Source: Rhodospirillaceae bacterium
GTDB taxonomy: Bacteria; Pseudomonadota; Alphaproteobacteria; UBA6615
Direction: 5' to 3'
DNA: 64,000 nt
Assembly: GCA_002724635.1 (NCBI GenBank)
Contig: PBPM01000100.1
Location: forward strand, 1-64,000
Shown here: one piece after another, positions 28,888 to 62,312 of the stretch
How the letters are laid out: every line of letters begins with the position of its first letter
How positions within the stretch are numbered: the stretch's first letter is position 1
Notes under the pieces: generated by a model
Database searches by the model: none
The model's input: only the letters and a program-made list of their open reading frames with translations
Told to the model about the DNA's origin: nothing
Made by a program: the position numbers and the translations under genes

Positions 28888-29727
28888 CTATGTCACGAAC
28901 CGTTCTTCGCCCAAGGTCCGCGCGAGCGCGCAGAATTGTTTAACATCGAGGTCTTCTGCCCGCGCATCCCCGGGGACATTTGCCGCCTCGAGGATGGCTG
29001 CCCCACCGATTGGCGCGAGGGCGCGGCGGAGCATCTTGCGCCGTTGGCCAAATGCGGCCCTGGTCACGACTTCCAAGTCTTCGCGCCGTGCCGGCGCTAG
29101 AGGTTCAGGGCGCATTGTCAGATTGACAACGGTGGAGATCACGTTGGGCGGAGGGACAAAGGCGGATGGCGGAATATCGAACATCGCTCGGGGATCCGTG
29201 AGCCAGCGCGCGAGGACCGAGAGCCGTCCATAGCTTTTGCTGCCCGGGGTCGCGACGATCCGTTCGGCGACTTCCTTCTGGAACATCAGGGTAAAGCCCA
29301 AGAAGCCGTCGGCCTGCATCAGCCAGTTGATCAGCAGCTGTGTACCGACATTGTAGGGAAGATTGGCGATCACCGTGCGGGGATACGGGGCCAATTTCGT
29401 AAGATCGGTCTCGAGTGCGTCTGCGGCGAAGACTGTAAGCCGACCCTTTGCTTGCTCGGCTAGTTCGCGCAATGCATCAACGGCGCGTGCGTCGCGTTCC
29501 AATGCATAGACGTGGTGCGCATCGGACTCAAGCAATGCGCGAGTCAGCCCGCCCGGTCCAGCGCCAATTTCGATCACGTTGACGCCCGCGAGGTCTCCGG
29601 CTACCGAGACGACGCGGCGCGTCAGGTTCAGATCGAACAGGAAATGCTGGCCGAGCGACTTCTGTGCGGCAATGTCAAACCGCCCAACGATCTCGCGCAG
29701 AGGCGGCAGGGCGTCGGCGTCAAACAC
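28888..29727 (-). CDS. rsmA: 16S rRNA (adenine(1518)-N6/adenine(1519)-N6)-dimethyltransferase
   Basis: KSLGQHFLFDLNLTRRVV, VIEIGAGPGGLTRALLE, VIANLPYNVGTQLL; GTG at 29727 or TTG further upstream, overlapping the surA 3' end. Confidence 0.95.
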   Translation of the reverse strand: MFDADALPPLREIVGRFDIAAQKSLGQHFLFDLNLTRRVVSVAGDLAGVNVIEIGAGPGGLTRALLESDAHHVYALERDARAVDALRELAEQAKGRLTVFAADALETDLTKLAPYPRTVIANLPYNVGTQLLINWLMQADGFLGFTLMFQKEVAERIVATPGSKSYGRLSVLARWLTDPRAMFDIPPSAFVPPPNVISTVVNLTMRPEPLAPARREDLEVVTRAAFGQRRKMLRRALAPIGGAAILEAANVPGDARAEDLDVKQFCALARTLGEERFVT

Positions 29728-31006
29728 GCAGGTCAACAAACGCCGCGCGGCGCAGGTCGCGGAGATAGCGTCGCGACAGCATATCTACGCGTTCGCGTTC
29801 TATGTTGCGGCGGATCTCTTCGCGGCTTGGGCCAACATTCTCCTGACGTTCACAAACCATGAGAACTTGAACCCCGGTTTGCAGGCGGATCGGCGTGCTG
29901 GCCTTCCCTATCGGCAGCTGCGCGGCTACTGATCGGAGCTTGGGATTCAAATCCTTGAGCTGAAAGCGTGCCGGTGATGCCGGCTGCGGTGTGCCCGCCT
30001 CGGCCGCAGCGGTGGCGAAATCCTCGCATCCATTTACACTCGAAGCGATTCTCTGAGCGGTCTGTATATGCGCATCGAGCGCGCCGGGCGGAGAATCGCT
30101 GTGGGACTGCAGAATCATCTGCCGCAATGAAACCGTGCGATCATTGGGATCCGGGGGCTCGTTCGTGCGTCGGTCGATCAGGATCAAAATCTGGATGCCC
30201 TCGGGTACGTCGATTGGCTCCGATATCTCTAAGCGTTCTAGGTCGCTGATGACTCGGTCCACGGCCGGATCGAGTTCACCGGGCTGAATCCAGCCGATAT
30301 CTCCCCCCGTTGCGGCGGTCGCACTCTTGGAGAACTGCTGGGCAACGGCCCGGAAGTCGGCGCCGCTGCGCAATTGTTCGACGAGGCGTCCGGCGAGCGT
30401 TCGGATATCGGACGCGTCTGCAGGGTTATCGATCGGCAGAAGGATTTCGCCGACGCGGTATTCGGTCACCCCGGCGTTCGCCTGAATTCTCGCGACCACA
30501 TCGTCGATTTCCTCATCACCGATCTCGATCGTCGGCACGACAGTGCGCACGAGCAGCTTCTGCCACAACAGGTTCGACCGGATCTGGTCGAGAGCTGCCT
30601 CAAACGATATTCCCTGCCGCTCGATGAAGGCCTTGAAGTGTCCAGCCGGAAGGTTGTTCGCCCTCTCAATCTGCTCCATAGCGGAATCGACTTCGCGCTG
30701 CGTGATCCTGATATTCAGTCGCTATGCTTCTTGGGTCTGGAGCGCCTCGTCGATCAGCCCACGCAGGACCTGAGGGGCAATCCGTTTTTGCGTTTCGGTA
30801 TTGTTGGGCAGTCCGGCTGACGTGATGAGCAGGCGCATACGCTGTTGCACGTCGAAAATGGAGATGACCTTCTCGTTCACAACGGCGGCAATACGCTGAA
30901 TATCCTGAGAGACAGATTGAGTCGCAAAGAATGAAACTGTGACGATGCAAAAGATGGCGGTGATCGGTCGCAGTACTTTCGGGCGTTTGTGGGCGTTTGG
31001 TTTCAT
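29720..31006 (-). pseudogene. surA: surA-like periplasmic chaperone/peptidyl-prolyl isomerase gene with one in-frame TAG
   Basis: N-part MKPNAHKR...LIDEALQTQEA then TAG (30722-30724) then RLNIRITQREVDSAMEQIERANNLPAGHFKAFIERQG... in the same frame to 29720. Confidence 0.8.
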
Positions 31007-33130
31007 CTAGAATACCGAGGATTCGATTTGGCCTAAGCTCTTGAACGTAACCCGGAGTGTTAGCGATTCATCGCTAGGAATGTCCCGATCAGTCGTGAAG
31101 GTAGATCGGTATATTATTTCGAAGTTCATGCAATCGCACTCGTAGACTAGAGAACCGCCATAGGACAGCGTGCCGCCCTCGGATGTCAGGTCACGCTGGG
31201 TCTGAATCTGTGCCGACCATTGGTCCGTCAACCTGGACTTGAGTGCCGCGGTGACCTCCTCCCGATCCGCGAAACCGCTGGTTCGGTCGAAGAAGACATA
31301 GTTCAGGTCGAGGTTGAGAGCTGGAGGGCCGATGGCTGCGGAGATTTCCGTGCGTCGCGCGCGCAGGGAGTCATGGTCAAATCTGGTTTTGTAGAGGAGG
31401 CTCGTGAACTTGTTCGGCTTGATTTGGAGGCTGGCGACGATGTCCGAAAGCTGATCCTCCAGTCCTGTTCCGAGTGGATAGGGGTTGGATTCGCGGAACC
31501 GAAAAGACTGGCCAACGGTGAGGGTTGAACTGCCGCCCAATTCACCGAAAACGCCAGTTCGGAAGCCGTAGACCATCCGCTGACCGCCTTCCACCCGGTC
31601 CGTGCCAGAGAACCGGTTCGGGGCGAACAGGTTGGTTTCGTCGAACGCGATGCTTTGACTGTCCTCGTCCGGGATCTTGTCCGGGTTGCCGCCATTGGGG
31701 GCGACGATTAGCGCGAGGAGGGGCTCGAAAAGCTGGCCGTTCGGTCCGGACCGCCGAATCCAAGGGTAGCGCCAACTCAAGGTCGCCTGCGGGAAGATCC
31801 GTCCGACTACGGCGTCTTCTCGGCCCCGCGAGGTGTCAACATCGCTCACGTTATAGAGGTCGCCCTGGACGGATGCACGAAAGCTTGTGATCGATCCGAA
31901 GCTGTCGGTATTAGATATCTGCCATCCAGGGGTCAGGCTGATGCGCTGGCTGGATGCGCCCTCCTCACGAGCAAGCGCACGTAAGTTGGCATCCAAGGTC
32001 GTCATACCGCCGTAGTGGCCTGGCGGGCTGATGTAGCTGTATTCCAGATTTGGGAGCACAACCGGCGTCTCGGCTTGATCGTTACTGTCACGCAATCCCT
32101 GGAAGTATAGCCCTTCCGCAACTGCATGAGATCGCGACCCGAAGCCCTCTAGATAGAGCCTGTTGGTGAGGGTGTCGCTATTTTTGAAGTACCGGCCGAG
32201 GTAGGTATCGTCGCTAACCAGCTTGATGTCCGCGCCCCAGCGCCAAAGTTCATCGAGGGAGAAGCGCGTCTCGGAGTCGATATGGCCTCGCCACCTGTCC
32301 TTTCCGACCTGCGCATCGTCTTGCGTGAACGACAATCGTGTGCGGTTTTCGCCATCGGCGAAACGTTGTCTGTACTCGCCCGTTACGACCGGAAACTGGT
32401 CGGGCGAGAGGATTGGGTCAAATGTCAGGTCCCGGTCGTCGGCAATGACCCAGAAATATGGTAGCTGGATAGATGACCCCAACAGGCTCGATGCGCCGAA
32501 TGTGGGTGTTAGAATGCCGGATTTGCGCTCGACGGTCGGGTCGGGATGGAAGAGGAATGGCGTGTAGGCGACCGGCACGCCAAGAACCTCCAGCGTCGCA
32601 TCCCGGTAGATGACCTCCTGCACGTCGGCGTCGTGCAAGACACGGCGGGCCTTGATCTGCCAGAGAGGTTCTTCTTCGAAGCTCAGGCAGTTGCGACATG
32701 GCGAATAGACCGCGCGGCTGAGTTCAGTCTCGACGCCGCCGCGGCGCTGGGCGCTCACTGCAGCCAAACGGGAATCATCATTGAGCAGCATGCGGAAGCC
32801 GCGCAGGAAGCCTTCACGCATGTCAGCAGTTAGTTCCGCAAACTCTGCGAAAAGGATTTCGCCTGTCGGCTCGAGCAGCACGACATTTCCGGATGCCGTC
32901 ACGATATCATCGCGTTGGTTGTAGGTGACGGAGTCAGCGTTCAGGATGCGTCCTCCCTGCACTATCTCGACATTCCCGCGGGCCGTTGCTGTTCCTAGGT
33001 CCTCGTCAAACGAGAGATCATCGGCGGTCATCAGGATGGGTTCGTTCGACCCGACCTGCTGGGCGAGTGCCTCGGGTATGACCGAGGCACTCGTCAGGCA
33101 AAGAGCCAGCAATAGTGCGCGCGCCTGCAT
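31007..33130 (-). CDS. lptD: LPS assembly protein LptD
   Basis: Signal peptide, NEPILMTADDLSFDEDLGTATARGNVEIVQGGRILNADSVTYNQRDDIVTASGNV OstA domain, long beta-barrel C-domain; start overlaps lptG stop (TAATG). Confidence 0.95.
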   Translation of the reverse strand: MQARALLLALCLTSASVIPEALAQQVGSNEPILMTADDLSFDEDLGTATARGNVEIVQGGRILNADSVTYNQRDDIVTASGNVVLLEPTGEILFAEFAELTADMREGFLRGFRMLLNDDSRLAAVSAQRRGGVETELSRAVYSPCRNCLSFEEEPLWQIKARRVLHDADVQEVIYRDATLEVLGVPVAYTPFLFHPDPTVERKSGILTPTFGASSLLGSSIQLPYFWVIADDRDLTFDPILSPDQFPVVTGEYRQRFADGENRTRLSFTQDDAQVGKDRWRGHIDSETRFSLDELWRWGADIKLVSDDTYLGRYFKNSDTLTNRLYLEGFGSRSHAVAEGLYFQGLRDSNDQAETPVVLPNLEYSYISPPGHYGGMTTLDANLRALAREEGASSQRISLTPGWQISNTDSFGSITSFRASVQGDLYNVSDVDTSRGREDAVVGRIFPQATLSWRYPWIRRSGPNGQLFEPLLALIVAPNGGNPDKIPDEDSQSIAFDETNLFAPNRFSGTDRVEGGQRMVYGFRTGVFGELGGSSTLTVGQSFRFRESNPYPLGTGLEDQLSDIVASLQIKPNKFTSLLYKTRFDHDSLRARRTEISAAIGPPALNLDLNYVFFDRTSGFADREEVTAALKSRLTDQWSAQIQTQRDLTSEGGTLSYGGSLVYECDCMNFEIIYRSTFTTDRDIPSDESLTLRVTFKSLGQIESSVF

Positions 33131-34230
33131 TACCCGTCCTCTAAGTGGAGAAGCGAGGTAATTCCCGCCAGCAGGCTGACGCCGGCCGGGGTCCAGGCAG
33201 CGAGGATAATTGGCACGCTGGCGCCGAGGGCGAGTGCCTCGATGACATTCGTCAGAAGAAATAGAAAAAAGCCGGCCAGAACGCCCGCGCCGACCAGTAC
33301 GATCGTGCCGCCGCGGCGCGTCAGGCGCAGCGAGAAGGTCGCGGCAATAAGGACCATGGCCGCGAGGAGAACCGGCTGGGCGAGGAGTGCGTGCATTTGC
33401 AACTGGTGCGCCACCGGAGAGAAGCCGGTCTCTTCGAGCACCCGAATGAAACGCGGCAAGTTCCACAATGCCACCGTGTCCGGGCTGGCGGAGCTCTCCT
33501 GGATCTTGTCGGGTGTCAGGTCCGTGGCGAGGTCTTGTGATTTCACGAAAACCCCCGCGCGCCCGGGCCGCGTCAGCCATGCATCCGACAGCCGCCACCG
33601 GCCGTCTAGGAGCAGGGCGCTTTCGGCATCAATCCGTCCTATGAACTTGTCGTCATTGGCAAATTCGAAAACGATGACCTGTTCGAGGCGTAGCGCGTCG
33701 GGTTGCACCCGTGCTGCATGAATCACGGTCTGCCCGGCGCCCTCGGCGCTGTTCTGGCGCAGCCAGATGCCTTCGGCCGAGACCGCGAGCAGCGATGAAC
33801 GGCCGGTGAAGTAGCGACCCTCCAACTCCTCGAATTGAGAAAGAAGCACGGCCGACAGCGGATTGATCACCGAGATATTGATGACGCCGAGGGCGAACGC
33901 AGCGATAATCGCCGGCGCGAGGAACTGCCAGACCGACACCCCTGCTGCTCTCAGAACGACTAGCTCGTGATTTCGAGTCAGCCGCTGGAACGTGAAAATG
34001 CTACCGAACATGACGGCAAACGGTACCGCTTCCTGAGCTAGGAAGGGGGTGCGGAGCAACGCCATGCTGGTGATCACGCTGAAGGTGGCATCGTTGCGAC
34101 CGCTACCGCGCCGCAGGAGTTCGATCGCGTCGATCAGGACGATTACCGCAACGATGGTGGCGGACATGATCGCGAACCAGATTAGGAATTGCCGCAGAAT
34201 ATAAAAGGATATGGTGCGCGAGGCGATCAC
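33130..34230 (-). CDS. lptG: LPS export ABC transporter permease LptG
   Basis: YjgP/YjgQ-family: ISFYILRQFLIWFAIM, FTFQRLTRNHELVVLRAAGVSVW. Confidence 0.95.
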   Translation of the reverse strand: MIASRTISFYILRQFLIWFAIMSATIVAVIVLIDAIELLRRGSGRNDATFSVITSMALLRTPFLAQEAVPFAVMFGSIFTFQRLTRNHELVVLRAAGVSVWQFLAPAIIAAFALGVINISVINPLSAVLLSQFEELEGRYFTGRSSLLAVSAEGIWLRQNSAEGAGQTVIHAARVQPDALRLEQVIVFEFANDDKFIGRIDAESALLLDGRWRLSDAWLTRPGRAGVFVKSQDLATDLTPDKIQESSASPDTVALWNLPRFIRVLEETGFSPVAHQLQMHALLAQPVLLAAMVLIAATFSLRLTRRGGTIVLVGAGVLAGFFLFLLTNVIEALALGASVPIILAAWTPAGVSLLAGITSLLHLEDG

Positions 34231-54334: not shown

Positions 54335-54491
54335 GCTTTGGACATATGACCGGTAGCTGTGGACGTGTGAGTGTTTAACATTCATTCCTTTACAAGAGTT
54401 AGAGAACGGGTCGGTGGGCGGATGAATCTTTGGGGTCCTAGGGTTATGACCGACCTTAGTTCATGCGAACAACAATGGCTGCGCAGGTCCA

Positions 54492-54857
54492 AAGAGCGTT
54501 CTTAGGGTCGAAGACAATAAGCTGGACATTAAGCTCTTTCATGATCTTTTGGAGGGGCAGGGCTAAGCGGCGCTGCAGACTAATGATCAACACGAGGCGG
54601 TACAGCTCGCGCATCAGTATCATACCAATCTCGTTCTGATGAATATTCAGCTTCTTTAGGTATCGGGACTGGTGGTTACCAAGTGGATTAAGGAAGACGA
54701 GAAGCCGCGCAAGATTCCGATGATCGTGGTGACGGCATTCGCGATGAAGGGAAATGGGGAGAAGATCCGCCAAGGCGGGTGCGAGGCCTATATCGCGAAG
54801 CCGATTGCCGTGTCGGAGTTTCTCGAGACGGTTCAGAAGTTCATTGATGCCTAGACT
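54492..54857 (+). pseudogene. divK: divK remnant (single-domain response regulator) with two in-frame stops
   Basis: [118 protein letters not shown] in one continuous frame. Confidence 0.85.
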
Positions 54858-61780: not shown

Positions 61781-62291
61781 TCAGCAGGCCGCAACACGAT
61801 TGCCCGGGTGCCGTTACAAACGCCCTGCCAACTCAAGTTAGAATAGGATCGTCCGAACGATTGGGGCGGTTAATTGGCACCGCCGCACGAGTTCGTCAAC
61901 CGCGACGGGCTCGGGCGACAGAAAAGAAACCACGCTTTCGCGAATCTCATTCCCGAAGATTTTCGCATCAAGAACCCGCGTTTTGCGGGGCGTCGGTCGC
62001 GTTTCGTGGCGCGGTTGCGACGGCTGGACCATGGGGCAGACCGCCTCGGACACATTTTTTGGGATTGCGCACGAGAACCGCGCCTTCGCCGATCAGGTGG
62101 TTCGCACCATAGGCGCGTCGGCCACCGCGGCCGGCGAACTCCGGCGGCGCTTCGGTGGCGTCGGTTGCAGAGCCGAAATGCTCCATCAGCTCACGTCATG
62201 TGACGGGGCCGATCTTATCGGTCCGGATCAGGCGTAACCGATCACGGTGCTCGGTGTGAGAGATGTTCGTGTCGCCCACGCATGTGAGCAT
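61781..62291 (-). pseudogene. dprA: dprA remnant: N- and C-terminal parts joined by a large internal deletion, with frameshift and stops
   Basis: EHRDRLRLIRTDKIGPVT*RELMEHFGSATDATEAPPEFAGRGGR | RAYGANHLIGEGAVLVRNPKK (frameshift) VSEAV...ESVVSFLSPEPVAVDELVRRCQLTAPIVRTILF*LELAGRL*RHPGNRVAAC*; between topA and plsY, its usual location. Confidence 0.8.
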
Positions 62292-62312
62292 GACCCCGCC
62301 GAACGCGGGTGA

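Follow-up and report, generated by a model that had tools for sequence, protein, structure and literature searches.

The only surA gene of this Rhodospirillaceae bacterium was found to carry an in-frame amber codon at position 95 of 428. Read from the assembled sequence, this interruption is probably (about 0.6) a recent and real nonsense mutation in a lineage that is shedding genes. The gene was analysed in a window of 64,000 nucleotides of contig PBPM01000100.1, together with the rest of the genome and with related genomes.

The surA gene lies on the minus strand (31006..29720) and comprises 428 codons and a terminal TGA; translation of that strand gave exactly one internal stop, the TAG at 30724-30722 (codon 95). 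The initial annotation had proposed that two open reading frames in the same frame together make one complete SurA-like protein, interrupted only by this TAG, and both points held: the 428 codons contain no other internal stop, and the SurA_N domain spans the TAG, with a score of 66.9 bits when the stop is read through (cut-off 30.8). It had also stated that the codons beyond the TAG still encode SurA. This was borne out by the PPIC-type rotamase domain (PF00639), which scored 78.8 bits in the part after the TAG alone, and by homology to relatives that is continuous from codon 96 onward, including codons 96-109, upstream of the first in-frame ATG (30679..30677, codon 110). The TAG divides the gene into an N-terminal fragment of 94 residues (31006..30725), in which a basic start and a hydrophobic stretch resemble a signal peptide by eye and are followed by the first part of SurA_N, and a remainder of 333 residues (30721..29720). 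Same-genus SurA relatives matched with 68-76% identity over 411-418 residues and without internal stops, which identifies 31006..29720 as far more than a chance frame. The reading frame is interrupted at codon 95; the SurA domains and gene order are present.

A profile search gave a single SurA_N match in the whole genome, indicating that surA is single copy, and no second intact surA was found when one was sought there. The search for SurA and PpiD paralogues proposed in the initial annotation thus brought up no further SurA; it returned a parvulin of about 321 residues and a PpiD-like protein, both encoded by open genes.

The order yicC-gmk-rsmA-surA-lptD-lptG-lptF-pepA was common to eight relatives, one of which has a contig that begins within yicC. 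As previously noted, lptD (33136..31007, minus strand) lies directly upstream of surA: its terminal TAG (31009-31007) is followed immediately, and in frame, by the surA ATG at 31006. On the other side, the start region of rsmA (ksgA; 29739..28888, minus strand) overlaps the surA stop, and the two genes are possibly translationally coupled. Because rsmA overlaps the end of surA, the TAG at codon 95 could exert some polarity on it. It was observed separately that in all eight relatives examined there is no pdxA between surA and the overlapping rsmA, which is directly next.

A surA search of 60 related genomes gave a match in 55. The source genome is designated here G000 and its sister G004, and G001-G006 are among seven same-genus genomes. 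Among the relatives matched, no internal stop was found in any same-genus or same-family SurA. A TGA flagged in G039, a distant relative, precedes the start, as the first codon of the alignment, and was rejected as an internal stop. Codon 95 is a sense codon in all 28 aligned relatives (stop in 0/28), and surA is intact in the sister genome G004. Within the genus the codon encodes Glu in four genomes and Asp in one, and the proposal that the TAG arose by a single substitution stands; in more distant relatives it encodes Ala, Arg, Lys, Gln, Phe, Glu or Asp. Because so many different residues occur there, the position is free to vary, and by this alignment the stop is private to the source genome.

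Loss of constraint after the TAG was measured relative to the sister genome. The distance from G002 in this part of surA was 0.545 for G000 versus 0.549 for G004. Among columns that do not vary across four further genomes of the genus, 14/206 were changed after the TAG in G000 and 20/206 in G004, and before the TAG the counts were 4/52 and 3/52, respectively. Flanking genes showed the same G000-G004 balance (ratios 0.83-1.11); for comparison, 25 of 105 otherwise invariant columns were changed in the old pseudogene divK. The ratio dN/dS relative to same-genus genomes was uninformative because synonymous sites are saturated. No relaxed selection after the TAG was therefore detectable versus G004, a result expected if the stop is very recent and equally if it is an error. 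Because no loss of constraint was seen, the surA stop should be either very young or not real.

Two other genes on the same contig, delineated with the genes of relatives, are also disrupted. The divK pseudogene (54486..54851, plus strand) has a TAA at 54564 and a TAG at 54657, an Asn in place of the phospho-acceptor Asp, and no start codon, whereas the divK orthologue is 97-100% identical among four same-genus genomes. The dprA pseudogene (62303..61784, minus strand) has a TGA at 62198, TAA codons at 61840 and 61816, and a deletion of the core domain, which a search of this genome did not locate elsewhere. Decay of the two genes has gone further in the sister G004, at the corresponding places: divK is a frameshifted scrap (G004:C41:58811-58988), and only 49 C-terminal residues of dprA are still recognisable. 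Thus divK and dprA are real, older pseudogenes shared by the clade, which renders further real loss in G000 plausible. The initial annotation had left open a fresh nonsense mutation or a base-calling error; both explanations survive, and the context provided by these older pseudogenes shared with G004 favours a real mutation.

Two side observations concern other genomes of the genus. In G002, another small genome, the divK gene (G002:C5:102526-102888) has a single in-frame TAA at codon 28 and is otherwise intact; this type of lesion closely parallels that of surA, and it sits in a gene already shown to have been lost by a different lineage of the genus. A search for a ChpT-like HPTransfase (PF10090) found it only in G003, G005 and G006 of the seven same-genus genomes, and not in G000, G004, G002 and G001. 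This may point to erosion of the CtrA phosphorelay across the genus, and the loss of the cell-cycle regulator divK in the clade may exceed the surA lesion in interest.

The main rival to a recent nonsense mutation is that the main genome does not have the stop, which would be a consensus error or a minority-strain base from the metagenome assembly, with surA intact; we consider this possible but clearly the less likely of the two. It accounts for the sequence after the TAG evolving no differently from that of the intact sister, and for a lone one-base lesion at a variable codon. The assembly is fragmented (137 contigs, with an estimated contamination of 6.15%), and many internal-stop pseudogenes in assemblies generally are artefacts (PMC11017572). 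However, in a survey of stops with the genes of relatives, taking one frame per place (66 genes inside or adjoining the window, 50 in a further 75 kb), surA alone had one clean stop out of about 116 genes supported by relatives (about 154 kb), and genuine gene loss can be demonstrated elsewhere on this contig. Every apparent internal stop inspected outside surA, divK and dprA fell in a shadow frame or ahead of the true start; the latter was the reason for rejecting those in lptD, dinB, pyrB and moeA. Since surA alone among these genes has a clean single stop, false stops are not widespread in the assembly: isolated stops are rare and the error rate is not high, and a single error in about 116 genes is compatible with these counts. 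A nonsense mutation is thus favoured.

Elsewhere in the assembly, on G000:C10 (stretch 12000-69000), an extra segment upstream of a moeA-like start, absent in G006, reads in frame VMPARAGIHEHR; the moeA-like match next to it ends at local position ~48960 of this stretch. This peptide may resemble those of dispersed repeats.

The remaining explanations accept the TAG as real and invoke its decoding. Read-through of codon 95, whether through a suppressor tRNA or through leaky termination, would yield enough full-length SurA, and would fit a frame that is fully conserved after the TAG. This is improbable, as no CUA anticodon was present among the 42 tRNAs with anticodons read by ARAGORN (out of 43 tRNA matches; the 43rd, weak match has the anticodon CAT by eye), the outcome of the amber suppressor search that the initial annotation had suggested. 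RF1 is open, with its PET motif and GGQ, and so is RF2, with SPF and GGQ. TAG is one of two main stop codons here: of 55 segments with support from relatives, located within the window or beside it (a set that includes a few shadow frames), about 23 end in TAG, mostly exactly at the homologous C-terminus. Since the lptD TAG is in frame with the surA ATG, efficient amber suppression would fuse LptD to SurA. The stop occurs in no relative, which argues against a conserved programmed site. Amber recoding was rejected on these grounds (no CUA tRNA, RF1 retained, TAG a widely used stop, site not conserved), and the read-through option raised earlier thereby lost its support. A variant in which the amber codon is real but tolerated, a leaky context allowing a little full-length SurA and surA being a low-level gene in an organism that sheds envelope and cell-cycle functions, is less probable still. 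Least probable of all is a restart at the ATG at 30679, 42 bases past the TAG, with a shortened SurA keeping function: the remaining 319 residues include the PPIase domain, but the product would have neither a signal peptide nor much of SurA_N and would be predicted to remain cytoplasmic, leaving the earlier suggestion of re-initiation unsupported. The weak CAT tRNA match lies near a contig end on G000:C19 (local 60-220), with an intact 3' half and an odd 5' half, and is perhaps the remnant of an integration site.

According to the favoured reading, a recent one-base substitution would have turned codon 95 of the sole surA into an amber stop, and RF1 would terminate there to leave a 94-residue fragment with the signal peptide and only the beginning of the N-terminal domain. 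SurA would be missing from the cell, and outer-membrane protein folding would be left to Skp, whose gene is open in this genome, and to the two other parvulins; surA would be an incipient pseudogene, in a lineage already without divK and dprA. We infer that the substitution is real, that no SurA is produced and that the remaining factors are sufficient. Deletion of surA is viable in A. baumannii, which survives even when SurA, Skp and DegP are all lost; in E. coli, by contrast, losing surA along with either skp or degP is conditionally lethal (PMC9578438). A search of the literature on surA pseudogenes found nothing relevant.

If the mutation is real, the first step of SurA loss would have been caught outside the intracellular Anaplasma/Ehrlichia group, with Skp and PpiD still present, and an envelope gene would join the losses in a clade shedding divK and dprA. 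Should it instead be an error, the case illustrates why isolated stops in metagenome assemblies ought to be backed by reads. The mechanism, mutation or error, is ordinary in either case.

Compared with known systems, surA resembles a case of amber recoding in having an in-frame TAG with conserved sequence on either side, but differs in that no suppressor tRNA was found, RF1 is kept and TAG is widely used as a stop. It agrees with alphaproteobacterial SurA (SurA_N and one PPIC rotamase) in domains, in length and in the lptD-surA-rsmA order of same-genus orthologues, except that the frame is broken at codon 95. Anaplasma and Ehrlichia are likewise Alphaproteobacteria without SurA in which Skp is kept (PMC2635482); there surA is gone, whereas here it is complete but for one codon. 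Young bacterial pseudogenes in gene-losing lineages offer a further comparison: surA, if its stop as read from the assembled sequence is real, shares with them one disabling change and clade-shared decay of other genes on the contig, and no relaxation after the stop was detected.
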